From positions 1 through 5,896 of the forward strand of contig CAJWPV010000107.1 in NCBI GenBank assembly GCA_913045395.1: DNA of 5,896 bases. Reading direction: 5' to 3'. Made by a program: the position numbers and the translations under genes. How positions within the stretch are numbered: position 1 is the first letter of the stretch; each line of letters opens with the position of its first letter. Source of the DNA: an uncultured Verrucomicrobiota bacterium (lineage in GTDB: Bacteria; Verrucomicrobiota; Verrucomicrobiia; Limisphaerales; UBA1096). Below the pieces are notes generated by a model. That model saw only the letters and a program-made list of their open reading frames with translations. It ran no database searches and had not been told where the DNA came from. Positions 116-5,896 of this stretch are shown here, one piece after another.

Positions 116-2047
116 TTACTGTTTGTCGGTGTAGAGGGTAAGGCGAGAACGAGTGGCGGCGGCGGCCTCGGGTTTACTGGATTTTTCCCAGATTTGAAGT
201 GCCTGTTGGGCGGTGGCGGCGGCGGCCTTGAAGTTATTGTTCGCAGCGTAGGCAACGGAAAGGGTGTCTAGGAATTCGGGGTTCTTGTTCTGGGTGATCC
301 TGCAAAGGCGATCAGACAATGCAAGTGCTTCAGTCGGGCTTCGCAGAGCTGCGTTTGACGTGGTTGCCAGGAGCAGGGAAAGTTGATTGGCGGCATCAAG
401 TTGTTTGATGTCGTTGCGGAGGGCGTCCTGATAGTTGGCGATGGCTTCGGAGATTTGACCCTCGTCACGGAGAGAGTTGGCGAAATGGAAATGGGCCTTT
501 CCAATGGAACGCTTGAGTTGAACGTCAGTAGCATTTATTTTTCGGGCGGCATTCAGGTGGGTGAGTGCCTCTTCAAAGCGCGTTAGATTGAGCAGATTGG
601 ATCCTAGTTCCATCAGAATTCGAAAATCCTCCGGGTTCCTTGCTAGAGCATTCTCAAACGCCTCAAGAGCCGCTTCGGTATTCTTGCGCTCCTTCAGGAT
701 GATCCCGATGACAAAATAGATATCGGCCAGTTCCTTTGGACTGGTGCCCGGTACTGTTTCCGCGACTGCGACATGTCGCTGGAGATAGTTCAGACCTTCG
801 GTGATTTCATTGTGATCGACGAACTGACTGTTGACGCGGAGTGGGTCGCCCTCCGGAGGAGGCCCAACCCATCGCCCAGGAAACGGTACTGAATGGTCAC
901 GCCAGACTTTTGGATCGGTATTGAGCAGATCAACATCGTCAAGGAGTTGATCAACGTTGACCGGGCCCTTGTAGATAACGGCCACGTGCCCGTAACGATC
1001 GATCAAAAAACTCCCTGGAACGGGCATGGGAAGCCAGCGATCAAGCAAGGAACGCTGAAAGAGATCAAGATTGCGAACGGTCTGGGAGGTTGTGTTGTCG
1101 GCGTCAAAAGGGAATTTCAATTTGGCCAAAGCACGCTTGGCTGCAATTGGATTTTCTGTATCAGCGTTCAGCACGTGTATGCGCAGTCCCTTTGAGCGAA
1201 TTCTGGATTCGGCCGCGGTCCATTCACGAAGTTCAGAGATGCAGGGGGCACACCAACTCGCCCAGAGATTGATGAGCAAGGGTCCCTTTAAACGAGCGGC
1301 CGGGAGTTCGGATACGCCGCTTTCAGATTGAACGTAGACTGGAGGGGGTGAGAGCCGTGCCGAAAGCACAATCCGGGCGGAAGGATCAGGGTCGGGAAAT
1401 ACGGGTAGCGAGGGAGAGAGGGTCTTGCGGTTGGGAGGTGGACTCCATGTTTTTGCGCTGTCGATTCCCTGGGTAACGAGGAATCGCTCGCCTGGTTTGA
1501 TACCAGAAATCGATTCTTGTGTCCCTCCCGGCCAGTGAACGAGTAACTTTTCGATGATGGCGTTTGGGCCAAGTCCAAAGTGAAGCCAGCCGCTGGATTG
1601 AGACAGAAACGCATCACCGGCGTGCACACGCCTAATCAGGGGGGTAGGCTGGTTTTTGAGATAGAGATGGACACGGGCACCCACAGCATCGCGGTTGGTT
1701 GTTTTACCGTTGCCTGACAACTTGACGGCAACCCAGTCGGCGTTGGCAACTGAATCGTTCCTTAAGAAGCGCAGGCGAGGTGCGGTGCGCGCTGTCATCC
1801 ACAGGTCGAGATCGCCGTCGAAATCCCAGTCAACGGCCGTGACAGCCCGGGAGTCATCCGGAAAATCGAATCCGGAGACCGAAGAGATATCCGCAAAACC
1901 GGTGCCTCGGCAATTGAGAAAGGCGCAATTACGCTCGTTGCCGCTAAAGGAACGGTCCTCGTGGAGGAGCCGGTTAAGCGCCTTCCATCCCTGCCGGTAA
2001 CGCACGGTGTTTTCCGGGGTGATCTTGTCGACCGGTGATTGCGACAC
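116..2047 (-). CDS. C-terminal part: FG-GAP blade, ASPIC/UnbV, TlpA-like thioredoxin, TPR (643 aa if started at GTG 2047)
   Basis: This is the downstream half of the recoded gene. Residue numbers here count from GTG 2047; add 640 for the full-length protein. One FG-GAP loop (DWDFDGDLDL, 73-82) leads into ASPIC/UnbV (107-193), with N-R-D-A-V-G-A-R-V, L-H-F-G-L-G and V-H-W-P-G-G hallmarks. A proline-rich linker leads to a thioredoxin fold of the TlpA/redoxin type, with W-A-S-W-C-A-P-C (Cys266, Cys269) and the cis-proline region V-P-G-S-F (343-347). About four to five TPRs fill 435-625. It has no signal peptide, yet its domains belong outside the cytoplasm, and the GTG has no well-spaced ribosome site (AGG lies only two bases away). 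Both points speak against independent translation and for readthrough from the upstream half. The exact TPR count is by eye. Confidence 0.85.
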   Translation of the reverse strand: MSQSPVDKITPENTVRYRQGWKALNRLLHEDRSFSGNERNCAFLNCRGTGFADISSVSGFDFPDDSRAVTAVDWDFDGDLDLWMTARTAPRLRFLRNDSVANADWVAVKLSGNGKTTNRDAVGARVHLYLKNQPTPLIRRVHAGDAFLSQSSGWLHFGLGPNAIIEKLLVHWPGGTQESISGIKPGERFLVTQGIDSAKTWSPPPNRKTLSPSLPVFPDPDPSARIVLSARLSPPPVYVQSESGVSELPAARLKGPLLINLWASWCAPCISELREWTAAESRIRSKGLRIHVLNADTENPIAAKRALAKLKFPFDADNTTSQTVRNLDLFQRSLLDRWLPMPVPGSFLIDRYGHVAVIYKGPVNVDQLLDDVDLLNTDPKVWRDHSVPFPGRWVGPPPEGDPLRVNSQFVDHNEITEGLNYLQRHVAVAETVPGTSPKELADIYFVIGIILKERKNTEAALEAFENALARNPEDFRILMELGSNLLNLTRFEEALTHLNAARKINATDVQLKRSIGKAHFHFANSLRDEGQISEAIANYQDALRNDIKQLDAANQLSLLLATTSNAALRSPTEALALSDRLCRITQNKNPEFLDTLSVAYAANNNFKAAAATAQQALQIWEKSSKPEAAAATRSRLTLYTDKQ

Positions 2048-3967
2048 GACCTGCCGCCAATAGACACTTCACAAATCGCCAGTGTCTTCGGTGCTGATAA
2101 AGCCGTTGGCAACAACCAGATCTTCCCAGCCGTCGTTGTTCAGATCCACAAAGCGGGAGCCCCACGCCCATCGCCCCATGGTCACACCCTGTTCCACGCT
2201 AACATCGCGAAAGCCGCGCTCTTCTTGGTTGGCCTGAAAAAGGGTGTTGCCGCGGGCGTGGCGTTGGTATTGAGCAAGCATTGCTTGGGGGGCACCGGGT
2301 TTAAACTGGCGCTGAAATGTAATTCGGTTCCCGGCAGCGGAAAACATGTTGCTGATGTAAATATCAAGGCGGCCGTCCCTGTTAAAATCCCCCCAACTAG
2401 CTGACATTCCAGAGGCCATATCCTCGATGCCCAGTTCAGCAGCGACATCAACAAACCTGCCGCTGGTATTTTCATACAGGTTGTTTCGTCCATAATCGTT
2501 GGCGACGTAGAGATCGGGATCGCCGTCATCGTCGTAATCCTCCCATGTAGCAGCAAAACTGAACCTGTTGTTGTTGTGGTTGAGGCCGACGTTTTCGGTT
2601 ACCTCGTTGAACTGCCACCTGCCGTCATTGCTAAGAAGCATATTTGCCCCCCCATTTTGGGCGTCGTGGTAGGGGAGCGGTTCTCCGAGCGCACCACTAC
2701 GGACTCGGTCCGCCGATGGATTATAACCGCAAGCATAGATGTCCAGGTCGCCGTCGAGATCAAAATCGGCGGCACTGATGGAGAAGGTTTGAGCGTGGGT
2801 GGAGGTTCCGAAGCTGAGATTGAAGCGACCGGAGCCATCGTTTTCCATGAGAAGCAGCTTGAAGTCCTGGGAGACAGCGAGGTCGCGATCACCGTCGTTG
2901 TCGAGATCGACGATCAGTGCACTGGCACAGTAGTCGAGCCAGCCGGTTCCGCTTTGGCGGGTGTGATCGGTAAGGGTTCCATCAGGATTCTGGACGAAAA
3001 GGCGGTTGGGCAATCCTCCCTGCTGGCAAAGGTACAGATCGTCCAGTCCGTCACCATTCACATCGCCTAATGCAAGTCCATGGTTGGCAACGACATCAAG
3101 CCCGAGGTTGACGGGAATGCGCGCACGCCAGTGGTCGGTGGAACGGAGCAACTGTTCCCGGTAAGACTTATTGTGGCCCAAAAGGTCGGCGGTGCAGTCG
3201 TTTAAGAGAGTGGTTTTATTTTTGGCAAGTCGGATGGATTCCTCGTAGGACAGGAGAGTGATGCTCTTGATATGCGGTGCTTCGATGTCTGGTGTCCAAT
3301 GGCAGAGCCATTCGGTGTTGATTTGTTTTGGTCCCTCGGTGGATTGGCCAGTGGCGTTAAACATGACACGGCTTGTAAAATCGTTTCCGGCCTTGTCGAT
3401 CCTGTAGAGTTTAACTTCGGTTTGAAGGATGTTGGTGGACTCAATGGTGGACAGGAGAGCCTGAAAGGCAATGACGGGATCGTTCTGTGAAGGTGCGGAC
3501 CCGGGGCCGCCTCGTTGGATATGGAATTCTGAGTCGCGGTAGAACTCGGATAAATTGGCCGGCTTAAGTTGCAGATTCAACGCAGTATCCTGAATAAAGA
3601 ATTTGCCGATGGAATCGTTGGACAGTTTTGAAGGTGTGGACAGTTCTTTTGCCAGCAGTTTGAGTTGTTTTGTCGCAGCAGCGCTGAATGCTTCACTGTC
3701 CCAGCCGTCCTCGATCGGATCAATGCGCTTGTAGGCATCGGTGAGTGGGGCGACAAAAGTGGTTTGTTCAAGTCCTGGCGCAGTTTGGATACCCTCGACG
3801 ACAGGAACTATTGCAATTGATTCAGGTGATGACGGAAGGGAGTTGGACTCTTTCGGAGTCGAATTTTTGGAGCAACCGGTCCACGAGAGGCATAGGATGA
3901 TACTGAGAATCCTGATCGATAGAAGGAGATCGAACCGGTGGCTACTGTTCTTCCGATCTGCCTTCAC
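116..3967 (-). CDS. Putative selenocysteine-containing CRTAC1-like lipoprotein: FG-GAP repeats, ASPIC/UnbV, thioredoxin and TPR (UGA read as Sec633)
   Basis: I read this as one gene of 1283 residues, from GTG at 3967 to TAA at 116-118, with an in-frame TGA as residue 633. Seen: both halves share one frame, only seven codons separate the TGA from the first possible restart (GTG 2047), and no other in-frame stop occurs. Domains in order: lipoprotein signal (1-32, Cys32); unrecognised region (33-about 290); FG-GAP calcium loops near 299, 352, 400, 476, 526, 607 and 713; ASPIC/UnbV (747-833); TlpA-like thioredoxin (about 870-1015, Cys906 and Cys909); TPRs (about 1075-1260). Known: FG-GAP arrays followed by ASPIC/UnbV normally lie in one CRTAC1-family chain, which is what the TGA would otherwise cut. 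Inferred: an envelope-anchored protein that may combine a beta-propeller scaffold with thiol or selenol redox chemistry. Its substrate is unknown. No selenocysteine machinery is visible in the window. A nonsense mutation or a base error remain alternatives. Confidence 0.7.
2038..2061 (-). promoter_or_regulatory. Candidate bacterial SECIS stem-loop just downstream of the UGA
   Basis: Read 5' to 3' on the minus strand, ATTG (2061-2058) pairs with CAAT (2041-2038). After one bulged G (2057), CGGC (2056-2053) pairs with GTCG (2045-2042) with one G-U pair. A2052-U2046 closes a GGUCG loop (2051-2047). This gives nine base pairs with a single bulge. The loop sits 18-22 nt after the UGA. Known: bacterial SECIS elements are short hairpins inside the coding sequence right after the UGA, with guanines in a small apical loop bound by SelB; the E. 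coli fdhF loop also has the core GCAGGUC at nearly the same distance. Caveat: the same bases encode W-R-Q-V-V, which may be conserved for protein reasons, and the bulge is a G, not the U of fdhF. Confidence 0.65.
2069..2071 (-). other. In-frame UGA codon, candidate selenocysteine (residue 633)
   Basis: The codon lies in the context G-D-L-[UGA]-S-V-Y-W-R-Q-V-V, between the sixth FG-GAP repeat and the linker to the seventh. Reading through it joins two sequences that continue one domain architecture without frame change. The complete gene itself ends with TAA. No other TGA occurs in frame in this gene or in the visible part of the plus-strand gene, so genome-wide reassignment of UGA is unlikely. 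A cysteine codon (TGC or TGT) differs from TGA by one base, which fits the usual Cys/Sec exchange, but I cannot check what homologs carry here. Confidence 0.68.
2069..3967 (-). CDS. N-terminal part of the lipoprotein (632 aa, the product if UGA terminates)
   Basis: This is the upstream half of the recoded gene and what a standard gene caller would report. The start is GTG; an in-frame TAG at 3989-3991 bounds it, and no clear Shine-Dalgarno precedes it. It is kept because the basic stretch before the hydrophobic core (residues 14-29) makes a proper signal peptide ending in T-G-Cys32, a somewhat atypical lipobox with Trp at -3. Residues 33 to about 290 match no family I recognise. Six calcium-binding loops of the DxDxDGxxDL type follow: DVNGDGLDDL, DLDNDGDRDL, DFDLDGDLDI, DYDDDGDPDL, DFNRDGRLDI and DLNNDGWEDL. 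These are typical of FG-GAP/VCBS beta-propeller blades. The half ends 15 residues after the last loop, with no seventh blade and no ASPIC/UnbV domain, so alone it would be truncated. Confidence 0.85.
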   Translation of the reverse strand: MKADRKNSSHRFDLLLSIRILSIILCLSWTGCSKNSTPKESNSLPSSPESIAIVPVVEGIQTAPGLEQTTFVAPLTDAYKRIDPIEDGWDSEAFSAAATKQLKLLAKELSTPSKLSNDSIGKFFIQDTALNLQLKPANLSEFYRDSEFHIQRGGPGSAPSQNDPVIAFQALLSTIESTNILQTEVKLYRIDKAGNDFTSRVMFNATGQSTEGPKQINTEWLCHWTPDIEAPHIKSITLLSYEESIRLAKNKTTLLNDCTADLLGHNKSYREQLLRSTDHWRARIPVNLGLDVVANHGLALGDVNGDGLDDLYLCQQGGLPNRLFVQNPDGTLTDHTRQSGTGWLDYCASALIVDLDNDGDRDLAVSQDFKLLLMENDGSGRFNLSFGTSTHAQTFSISAADFDLDGDLDIYACGYNPSADRVRSGALGEPLPYHDAQNGGANMLLSNDGRWQFNEVTENVGLNHNNNRFSFAATWEDYDDDGDPDLYVANDYGRNNLYENTSGRFVDVAAELGIEDMASGMSASWGDFNRDGRLDIYISNMFSAAGNRITFQRQFKPGAPQAMLAQYQRHARGNTLFQANQEERGFRDVSVEQGVTMGRWAWGSRFVDLNNDGWEDLVVANGFISTEDTGDL

Positions 3968-4003
3968 GCGGTAGCGAAAAATAGATGTCTAATTGCTGGT
4001 TGT

Positions 4004-4036
4004 CGATTAACAAGTACGATTAACCGGAACTAATCG
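4004..4036. repeat. CGATTAAC direct repeat plus inverted copy upstream of the minus-strand gene
   Basis: CGATTAAC occurs at 4004-4011 and again at 4017-4024, 13 bp apart. TAATCG at 4031-4036 is the reverse complement of CGATTA (4017-4022) across an 8-nt gap. The cluster lies about 37-69 bp before the GTG at 3967, where a regulator of that gene could bind. No known regulator motif is recognised. Confidence 0.3.
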
Positions 4037-4101
4037 CCGCCCCAACCTTACCGGGTACAGATCATCGGCCTCTGCCCTTCATAATGAACATAAACACCCG
4101 C

Positions 4102-4163
4102 CAACCTGGTGAATGGGATCAAAGCAACCAGCCTTTATTTAAAATAAAGATATTCACAGGTTG
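4102..4163. repeat. Inverted repeat with arms flanking the AT palindrome
   Basis: CAACCTGGTGAA (4102-4113) and TTCACAGGTTG (4153-4163) are reverse complements except for one extra G in the left arm. They enclose 39 bp that include the palindrome at 4133-4149. The nested arrangement could form a cruciform or paired protein-binding half-sites. It may also be chance; no known operator is recognised. Confidence 0.35.
4133..4149. repeat. Perfect 17-bp AT-rich palindrome
   Basis: CTTTATTT (4133-4140) and AAATAAAG (4142-4149) are exact reverse complements around a single A. The site is 110 bp before the plus-strand start, which suits an operator-like site or a region that melts easily. It lacks the GC-rich stem of an intrinsic terminator. 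Function is not known. Confidence 0.45.
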
Positions 4164-4242
4164 TTCACGATATACCGTTGTTTTTATGAGTGGCCGTGCA
4201 TTGGTTCAGTGAAAGTCGATTGACAAACCCGAGTTGATATCC

Positions 4243-4247
4243 GAGGA
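4243..4247 (+). promoter_or_regulatory. Ribosome binding site for the plus-strand gene
   Basis: GAGGA matches the anti-Shine-Dalgarno complement and lies 11 nt before ATG 4259. The spacing is slightly long. It supports this ATG, which is also the first start codon after the in-frame stop at 4235. Confidence 0.5.
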
Positions 4248-4258
4248 ATCCCCCGCCG

Positions 4259-5896
4259 ATGAAGTGTTCCAACCCCATTTTCGGAATCTGCCTTCTGTTT
4301 GTGGCAGTTGGTTGCGATCGCGCTCCCCATTCGACCATTGTGTCCGAACCGCTGCGTGACCGGCCTGCCCGGGAAGAAGGCGCTCCCCTGTTTGAAAAAT
4401 TGGCCCCGGCGCAGACCGGCGTGGATTTTTCGCACCGAATGGCCATGAATCATCCGCTCAGCCGCCTCAACAGCTCCGGGTTCGTTTGTGGCGGGGTTTG
4501 CATTGGTGACTTCAACGGCGACGGCCGGCCGGACCTGTTCCTGGCCAATGGGCCGGACAAGAACGGCCTTTTTCTGCAAAGAGACGAATTTCGTTTTGAA
4601 GATGTGACCCAACAGGCCGGAGTCGACGGGGGTGATGCCTGGGGTTCCGGGGCGGCAGCGGCTGATTTCGACGGCGACGGCGATCTGGACCTGTACGTCT
4701 GCAACTACGACGCCCCAAATCAACTGTTTGTCAATGACGGCACGGGAACGAAATTCACCGACGAGGCGGAATCGCAGGGGCTGGCGATGATTGATGCCTC
4801 GCTCACACCGTCGTTCGTCGACTACGACCGGGACGGTGATCTCGACCTGTTCGTCGTGACCTACCGATACTACCGGCCCGGTGGTCGGCCCGCGAAAACC
4901 CCCATCGTCATGCGAAACGGCCGCCCGAAGATTCTCGCCGGATTCGAGAAATACTATGACCTGCGCCAGGTCGGCCCGTCAAACTGGACCGTGGACACAT
5001 GCGGCCGCCCGGACCGGCTTTTCCGAAATGACGGCTCGGGGCGTTTCACCGATGTCAGCGAGAGCGCTGGGATCACGGAAAAGGGCCACGGCCTCTCGGC
5101 GACGTGGTGGGATCACGACCGGGACGGCTGGCCCGATCTCTACGTGGCCAACGATTTCACCGACCCGGAGCACCTCTACCGCAACAACGGCGATGGCACA
5201 TTCACCGACGTGCTGGAGCAGGCGATGCCGTACACAAGCTGGTCGTCGATGGGGGCGGACTGCGCCGACCTGAACAACGACGGGCTGCTCGACCTATTCG
5301 TCGCCGACATGGCCGCCACGACACACTACAAGTCCAAGGTCACCATGGGCGACATGGGCGACCGGCGCTGGTTCCTCGAGAATGCCTGGCCACGGCAGAT
5401 CATGCGCAACAACCTCTTCCTCAATACCGGCACGCCGCGCTTCATGGAGGCCGCCTTCCTCTGTGGGCTGGCCGGGACGGACTGGAGCTGGGCCGTCAAG
5501 CTGGCCGACCTCGACAACGACAGCCGCGTCGATGTCTACGTCACCAACGGCGCCTCGCGCATGATCACCGACGCCGACATCACGGTCACCCCGCAGATGC
5601 TCGTCGGCAAGACCGAGTGGGAACTGTGGAAAGAGCAGCCCACGATGAAGGAGGTCAACCTCGCCTTTCGCAACAAGGGCAATTTGCAGTTCGAGCAAAC
5701 CGCCAAGCCGTGGGGCCTCGCCCACGAGGGCATGAGCTACGCAGCCGCCTACGGCGACCTCGACGGCGATGGCGATCTCGACCTCGTCGTGACCAACATC
5801 GACGAGCCGACGAGCATTTACCGCAACATGGGCCACGAGGGCCACCGCGTGCTCGTCCGGCTGGTTGGTGCCGGGAGCAACCGTGACGGTCTCGGT
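4259..5896 (+). CDS. CRTAC1-like FG-GAP repeat lipoprotein with ASPIC/UnbV domain, 3' end outside window
   Basis: An open frame of 546 codons runs from ATG 4259 to the window edge. An in-frame TGA at 4235-4237 excludes an earlier start, and GAGGA lies upstream. The N-terminus is a short lipoprotein signal ending A-V-G-Cys19. Seven calcium-loop repeats begin at residues 84, 136, 188, 285, 337, 417 and 500 (for example DFNGDGRPDL and DFDGDGDLDL). The sixth, DLDNDSRVDV, has Ser in place of the loop glycine. C-G-R-P-D-R-L-F-R-N (248-257) is a form often seen in planctomycete-type members as I recall them. From about 530 the sequence enters ASPIC/UnbV (S-N-R-D-G-L-G) and is cut there. Inferred role: envelope-anchored calcium-binding beta-propeller protein of unknown partner. 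It is a distant paralog of the minus-strand gene and diverges from it. GC content by eye is clearly higher than in that gene, especially after about 5100. Whether it also carries thioredoxin or TPR modules cannot be seen. Confidence 0.93.
   Translation, partial: MKCSNPIFGICLLFVAVGCDRAPHSTIVSEPLRDRPAREEGAPLFEKLAPAQTGVDFSHRMAMNHPLSRLNSSGFVCGGVCIGDFNGDGRPDLFLANGPDKNGLFLQRDEFRFEDVTQQAGVDGGDAWGSGAAAADFDGDGDLDLYVCNYDAPNQLFVNDGTGTKFTDEAESQGLAMIDASLTPSFVDYDRDGDLDLFVVTYRYYRPGGRPAKTPIVMRNGRPKILAGFEKYYDLRQVGPSNWTVDTCGRPDRLFRNDGSGRFTDVSESAGITEKGHGLSATWWDHDRDGWPDLYVANDFTDPEHLYRNNGDGTFTDVLEQAMPYTSWSSMGADCADLNNDGLLDLFVADMAATTHYKSKVTMGDMGDRRWFLENAWPRQIMRNNLFLNTGTPRFMEAAFLCGLAGTDWSWAVKLADLDNDSRVDVYVTNGASRMITDADITVTPQMLVGKTEWELWKEQPTMKEVNLAFRNKGNLQFEQTAKPWGLAHEGMSYAAAYGDLDGDGDLDLVVTNIDEPTSIYRNMGHEGHRVLVRLVGAGSNRDGLG

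Follow-up and report, generated by a model that had tools for sequence, protein, structure and literature searches.

An in-frame UGA is predicted to encode selenocysteine in a family of FG-GAP/ASPIC proteins from uncultured Verrucomicrobiota

Does a TGA in the middle of a long bacterial reading frame end a gene, or does it encode an amino acid? This question is raised by a 5,896-nucleotide stretch of DNA from an uncultured Verrucomicrobiota bacterium (GenBank assembly GCA_913045395.1, contig CAJWPV010000107.1), referred to here, at its full length, as the window. On the minus strand, a half-frame of 632 codons (3967..2072, 632 aa) runs into TGA at 2071..2069 and continues beyond it, unshifted, to a stop at 118..116. 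Read through the UGA, the gene (116..3967) has 1283 codons with one TGA, and it encodes a 1283-residue predicted lipoprotein with an FG-GAP propeller, an ASPIC/UnbV domain, a ResA/TlpA-like thioredoxin domain, and TPR repeats. An earlier note on this DNA had described a single TGA within one continuous frame of this length and proposed a probable new selenoprotein family. The frame was confirmed from the minus-strand open reading frames (ORFs) and their translation, and the proposed family is strongly supported by the conservation of the UGA, frozen codons around it, covariation in the RNA behind it, and association with genes of the selenocysteine (Sec) machinery. On this comparative evidence, we put at about 0.94 the probability that the UGA (predicted Sec codon 633; 2069..2071, minus strand) is read as Sec via a conserved hairpin, which would yield a single selenoprotein of 1283 residues whose family is not in the catalogue checked.

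The UGA is conserved across relatives. When the 58 nearest genomes were searched with the protein, 11 further genomes of the genus proved to have an ortholog with a single in-frame TGA, and a genome from another family (G055) gave two homologs at about 40% identity. Over the 41 bases starting at the codon before the UGA, the 10 (of 11) genus orthologs that no contig end cuts are identical to the window, and this identity holds even for proteins of only 60% identity. Named genomes were also scanned using peptide patterns far from the codon, which confirmed 239 relatives, the best 80 of which were kept; the counts on relatives rest on these 80, and because the query alignment was built from proteins ending at the UGA, the scan leans to UGA-type relatives. 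TGA directly follows residue 632 in 75/80 kept relatives, and the other five carry the in-frame motif with TGA. According to their titles, the kept relatives come from Verrucomicrobiota (most), Planctomycetota, and Acidobacteriota; one titled 'Proteobacteria' (L092) is probably mislabelled, as it is 84% identical to the window protein. When the codon was left free in the search pattern, TGA occupied it in 4/4 matches among 387 genomes of the phylum and in 17/17 matches, from 15 genomes, among 320 genomes of the order, with no matches in the reversed-pattern control of either search. Neither UAA, UAG, nor a sense codon was found at this column among close relatives, namely the 80 kept relatives and the 21/21 pattern matches (the window being counted in each search). 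Some genomes contain two or three UGA copies (L103/L109, L111/L148, L140/L143/L150, L144/L149, and L139/L155, as well as G055 and G456).

An assembly error or a pseudogene comes to mind, given draft metagenome-assembled genomes and the incomplete genome of the window, yet its probability is practically negligible. Many projects have produced assemblies with the same TGA at this column, among them the chromosome-level record OX638355.1 (L158), and beyond this codon the frame continues for a further 460-740 codons in the 72 (of 83) read-through ORFs that no contig end cuts. Both halves are under purifying selection, with nonsynonymous rates (dN) of 0.02-0.15 and synonymous rates (dS) of 0.12-2.6 in eight pairs. 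Further disabling mutations in close relatives, named in the earlier note as grounds for giving up its proposal, were not seen, dN being far below dS on either side of the UGA in all eight pairs.

The UGA could instead be a normal stop that separates two independently translated genes, the hairpin being regulatory or a chance structure. Mechanical ORF calls do stop and restart at the UGA, an in-frame GTG lies directly behind it, and public databases store the first half as though it were complete. Of 120 listed database matches to the first half (11 of them the window's own or without a source), 117 end exactly at the UGA and three end elsewhere; the search was limited to proteins of about 350-1100 aa, which shut out full-length relatives with a sense codon. 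Such first halves are named VCBS or FG-GAP repeat proteins by NCBI (P0204, P0205, and P0238-P0240), and these entries are likely mis-annotated selenoproteins. Two separate genes are nevertheless extremely unlikely: the codon is only ever UGA and never UAA or UAG in the relatives and pattern matches, distant homologs each consist of one full-length protein that has a sense codon at the column, the structural match to CRTAC1 covers model residues 185-776 and thus straddles the UGA, and the gene has both frozen synonymous codons and a link to Sec genes.

As comparison of the orthologs shows, the RNA behind the UGA is constrained beyond its protein meaning. Synonymous entropy was scored at columns of conserved amino acids over the 83 read-through ORFs, a set that omits L090 (contig ends), L112 (N in the motif region), and L171 (motif filter), all three of which have TGA. 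Nowhere in the gene is synonymous entropy lower than over codons 632-642, which fall 1.14 bits short of the mean for the same amino acids; stretches not touching them reach 0.10 bits below it at most, and synonymous sites are frozen around the UGA only. The codons are almost always CAG at Gln639 (80/82), GTC at Val640 (81/83), GTG at Val641 (82/82), and TCG at Ser642 (76/80), and Arg638 is limited to CGA, CGG, or CGC, while directly behind the frozen stretch, at Ser644 and Pro645, codon choice is free again. These frozen sites answer the doubt, voiced when the hairpin was noticed, that protein conservation alone could account for it.

The hairpin itself (2038..2061, minus strand) resembles a bacterial Sec insertion sequence (bSECIS). 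It exists in the geometry described in the earlier note: A-U-U-(bulged G)-GCGGCA pairs with UGUCGC-A-A-U in nine base pairs, one of them G-U, beneath a GGUCG loop (2047-2051) at +18 to +22 past the UGA. The conserved core (2040-2059) consists of seven pairs and the bulged G. It may be like the SECIS of Escherichia coli fdhF, as the earlier note suggested. The minimum free energy (MFE) obtained by folding is -9.2 kcal/mol, and 6/6 folded sequences lie at -8.9 kcal/mol or lower. The bSECIS limits given in the sections of PMC13188914 consulted are a loop of 3-9 nt with G in the first two loop positions, a stem of 4-16 bp, a distance of 16-37 nt from the UGA, and an MFE of at most -7.5; the hairpin falls within every one of them (loop of 5 nt with GG, upper stem of 6 bp, 17 nt, -9.2 kcal/mol). 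Each of the seven core pairs is formed in 70-74 of 74 distinct sequences, and of the outer two stem pairs, the A-U pair is formed in 67/74 and the U-A pair in only 37/74. Covariation was assessed on 37 chosen sequences (36 distinct), all 74 distinct ones being counted separately. In the 36 sequences, 96.8% of the cells of the seven-pair stem are paired, three cells show compensatory double-sided changes, and the covariation score is matched by 0/500 shuffles; the stem slid to other registers gives 16-57% pairing. Pair 18-28 occurs as GU (18), AU (16), and CG (1), and pair 20-26 as AU (34) and GC (2). In a second, diverged copy of the gene in G495 (L177, minus strand), the hairpin is rebuilt as GCGGCG-CGUGG-CGUCGC with pairing kept. 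Rfam returned one chance-level match only for the hairpin region, outside the hairpin.

If the UGA encodes Sec, SelB would bind the GGUCG hairpin and bring Sec-tRNA to the UGA. The genes for such decoding are found with the UGA gene. In G004, a genome of the same genus, the UGA gene (888-4748), a tRNA-Sec gene (4895-4984; 61.7 bits by covariance model), selD, selA, and selB (to 9258) lie on one strand, and the selD, selA, and selB proteins of G004 and G014 all exceed the NCBIfam cut-offs. Eight of the 21 genus genomes, all carriers of the UGA gene, have a tRNA-Sec over threshold, located 146-388 bases downstream of the UGA gene in seven and 7.4 kb away in G014; at the loci of the seven other than G004, ARAGORN calls tRNA-SeC with anticodon tca. 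Within the genus, selB is over the cut-off in 5/21 genomes, with pieces in G013 and in G019, where no UGA gene was found, and selA occurs in 7/12 carriers (one a contig-end fragment below the cut-off) versus 0/9 others (p = 0.007). Outside the genus, the search covered 50 genomes of the kept loci and, for selA, G456 as well. In the wider set, selA is over the cut-off in 46/51 carriers versus 11/45 relatives without the gene (p = 2e-11; the two sets differ taxonomically), non-carriers among the 58 relatives being defined by best-listed protein matches and the codon-free pattern search. In this wider set, selB is over the cut-off in 43/50 carriers and tRNA-Sec in 40/50, 37 of them above 52 bits (we distrust matches of 47-52 bits because they may be other long-arm tRNAs), and 50/50 carriers have at least one Sec marker. 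Since the UGA and hairpin are kept in three phyla and Sec genes are present in most of the genomes that have them, the UGA is predicted to encode Sec.

Among known selenoprotein families, formate dehydrogenase was the one considered as an explanation of the Sec trait in the genus, and it was rejected, the listed matches being without a stop. selA also occurs in 11 genomes of the order where no UGA gene was found, which makes further selenoproteins in the order probable.

Reading of the UGA as Trp or some other standard amino acid, whether through suppression or an altered code, would likewise leave the frame open and selected past the UGA, and one sense-codon homolog has Trp at this column. 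We consider it very unlikely. TGA still terminates 39/80 mechanical ORFs with 300 codons or more at eight loci, which shows that the genetic code has not simply changed; such reading would have no need for selA, selB, and tRNA-Sec, yet these track the gene; and the hairpin lies within the published bSECIS limits.

How the UGA may have arisen was approached through the sense-codon homologs. Among the best 120 of 7429 matches in a search open to full-length proteins, the best-scoring sense-codon relatives are 52% identical, and identity is mostly 54% or less. The tree and the table of residues at the column comprise 25 of the 83 UGA ORFs and, out of 119 database homologs, the 86 left after a motif filter. 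All UGA rows fall into one 35-row group (SH-aLRT 93, midpoint root), which also contains Ser, Ala, Asp, and Arg rows and one Cys row. As drawn, the tree needs eight label changes, three of them forced by well-supported branches, and the simplest reading of these relationships would be one origin of the UGA, then repeated loss. In five genomes of the genus, paralogs of about 29% identity (G000:C280:1006-2640, G008:C225, G006:C3, G010:C377, and G005:C6) align over a single in-frame TAA, which may only be an alignment overrunning the gene end.

Several observations weigh against the prediction of Sec. Cys stands at the column in 9/86 sense-codon homologs, and Ser, Asp, and Glu dominate, which is unlike most known selenoproteins; the earlier expectation of UGA or Cys in homologs is borne out only in part, by UGA in every close relative examined. 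No tRNA-Sec, selA, or selB was over the cut-off in the window's own genome, which is 68% complete and whose contig stops 115 bases past the UGA gene, so that the machinery expected by the earlier note is provided by relatives, with the operon behind the orthologous gene, and not by this assembly. The genus carriers G001 and G016 also have no Sec markers over the cut-off; for G016, with a genome 93% complete and a contig that extends 479 bases past the gene, this is a real gap in the evidence. ARAGORN makes no tRNA-Sec call in G004. Outside the genus, no Sec gene lies within 10 kb of the UGA gene, and adjoining Sec genes as a general rule were rejected, the arrangement being seen in the window's genus only. 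The yardstick for entropy is thin (one other conserved Val column and four Gln columns). As to the RNA, 8/252 stem cells are unpaired, four of them at pair 16-30, and 84/500 shuffles match the number of further pair types. The folding suggested in the earlier note does recover the hairpin at -9.2 kcal/mol, but this energy is no better than chance (z = -0.50); since 57/200 shuffles fold at least as well, it proves nothing, and single-sequence folding energy was rejected as evidence.

What kind of protein would carry this Sec? All of its features lie on the minus strand. The N-terminus is a predicted signal peptide and lipobox (3872..3967) with Cys32 in LSWTGC, Cys standing at this column in 54/64 aligned orthologs. 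The FG-GAP beta-propeller part before the UGA spans about residues 298-632 (2072..3076; Pfam FG-GAP_3 and FG-GAP, structure model, and CRTAC1 match) and contains Cys314 (3026..3028), conserved in 81/83 UGA orthologs, and Cys413 (2729..2731), conserved in 80/83. Behind the UGA follow a UnbV_ASPIC domain at residues 761-827 (1487..1687; PF07593), a Redoxin/AhpC-TSA (ResA/TlpA-like) domain at residues 891-1004 (956..1297; Pfam, and ResA by Foldseek) with a CAPC motif (Cys906 and Cys909; 1241..1252), both Cys of which occur in 79/79 UGA orthologs with that part, and TPR repeats at residues 1081-1185 (413..727; Pfam). FG-GAP repeats and UnbV_ASPIC exceed the Pfam cut-offs, and the fold agrees, placing the protein with CRTAC1/UnbV_ASPIC proteins; Redoxin scores 34.5 bits (cut-off 26.6), which identifies a ResA/TlpA-like thioredoxin domain with CxxC, and matches to the NCBIfam ResA/TlpA models are below their cut-offs. 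The predicted tryptic peptide across the UGA site is FVDLNNDGWEDLVVANGFISTEDTGDL-U-SVYWR.

In the structure model, a helix of the CRTAC1-like fold begins at Sec633, from which we infer a redox role for this residue. As the thioredoxin motif is itself CxxC, Sec is not in that active site. Cys314 is a candidate partner, although the Cys314-Sec633 link, drawn from related sequences, is only suggestive. The chain would be exported and lipid-anchored, and redox activity would reside in Sec633, which may pair with Cys314 and could be reset by the CxxC domain of the same protein. We put forward only tentatively the full picture of an envelope selenoenzyme in which a CRTAC1-like propeller performs extracytoplasmic Sec633-Cys314 redox chemistry, is recharged by its own ResA/TlpA domain, and whose gene sustains the Sec operon of the genus. 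A selenium-dependent switch might be envisaged instead, with a functional 632-residue propeller lipoprotein made without selenium and the full protein, also functional, made with it. The UGA separates most FG-GAP repeats from the ASPIC, thioredoxin, and TPR parts, and in known selenoproteins Sec insertion has to compete with termination. We regard such a switch as unlikely: nothing tested favours a role for the short form, which may not fold, as sequence on either side of the UGA contributes to the CRTAC1-like fold.

Upstream of the UGA gene, a second CRTAC1-like FG-GAP gene without UGA runs divergently (4259-5896, plus strand) off the window end. A comparable FG-GAP neighbour adjoins the orthologous gene in G007, and in G014 it sits beyond selB (L075, 77-3886). 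In G014, a gene for a protein of KPDIFGR.KT.YKD repeats (L075, 8945-9505, minus strand) separates the UGA gene from the Sec operon.

Is the family new? The 2026 catalogue (PMC13188914) has 119 selenoprotein families, a few of its entries being hypothetical proteins known by model number only, and its Table 1 contains no FG-GAP, ASPIC, or CRTAC1 family. In NCBIfam 20.0, no selenoprotein model is over its cut-off for the read-through protein; the WAxxUGC ResA-like model was rejected at 21.7 bits against a cut-off of 300. The suspicion that this protein type lies outside known selenoprotein families is thus borne out in Table 1 and NCBIfam 20.0. No paper on an FG-GAP/ASPIC selenoprotein family was found in the literature searched, as judged by title and start of the abstract, and the terms looked for do not occur in PMC12013277. 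The predicted decoding follows an established pattern, and by the catalogue, NCBIfam, and the literature searched, the family is new.

Known systems each share something with this protein. E. coli formate dehydrogenase FdhF exemplifies decoding by SelB and bSECIS, whereas its protein family is unrelated. Compared with mouse CRTAC1 (PDB 9etn), the UGA protein has a predicted Sec codon, an N-terminal extra part, and fused thioredoxin and TPR parts. It shares the fold (2f9s, TM 0.78 by target, Foldseek) and the CxxC motif with ResA/TlpA oxidoreductases, but here the ResA/TlpA-like part is a domain inside a large protein. The redoxin-family and UGC-containing TlpA selenoproteins of Table 1 in PMC13188914 also have a thioredoxin-fold part; in these, however, Sec lies inside UxxC or UGC, while in the UGA protein it is predicted 273 residues upstream of the CxxC, outside the motif in 79/79 orthologs. 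The planctomycete P1/P2 selenoproteins and Sec operon share the Sec trait in the PVC group, but the selenoproteins named in the section of PMC4807772 consulted are FdhA and FmdB.

If the prediction is true, a widespread exported bacterial family is read in public databases as half-length fragments because its Sec codon is taken for a stop. The FG-GAP propeller with ASPIC would be added to the scaffolds known to carry Sec, being absent from Table 1 of the 2026 catalogue, and the poorly understood CRTAC1/ASPIC fold would be tied to redox chemistry. For uncultured Verrucomicrobiota and Planctomycetota, it would mean a selenium-dependent function.
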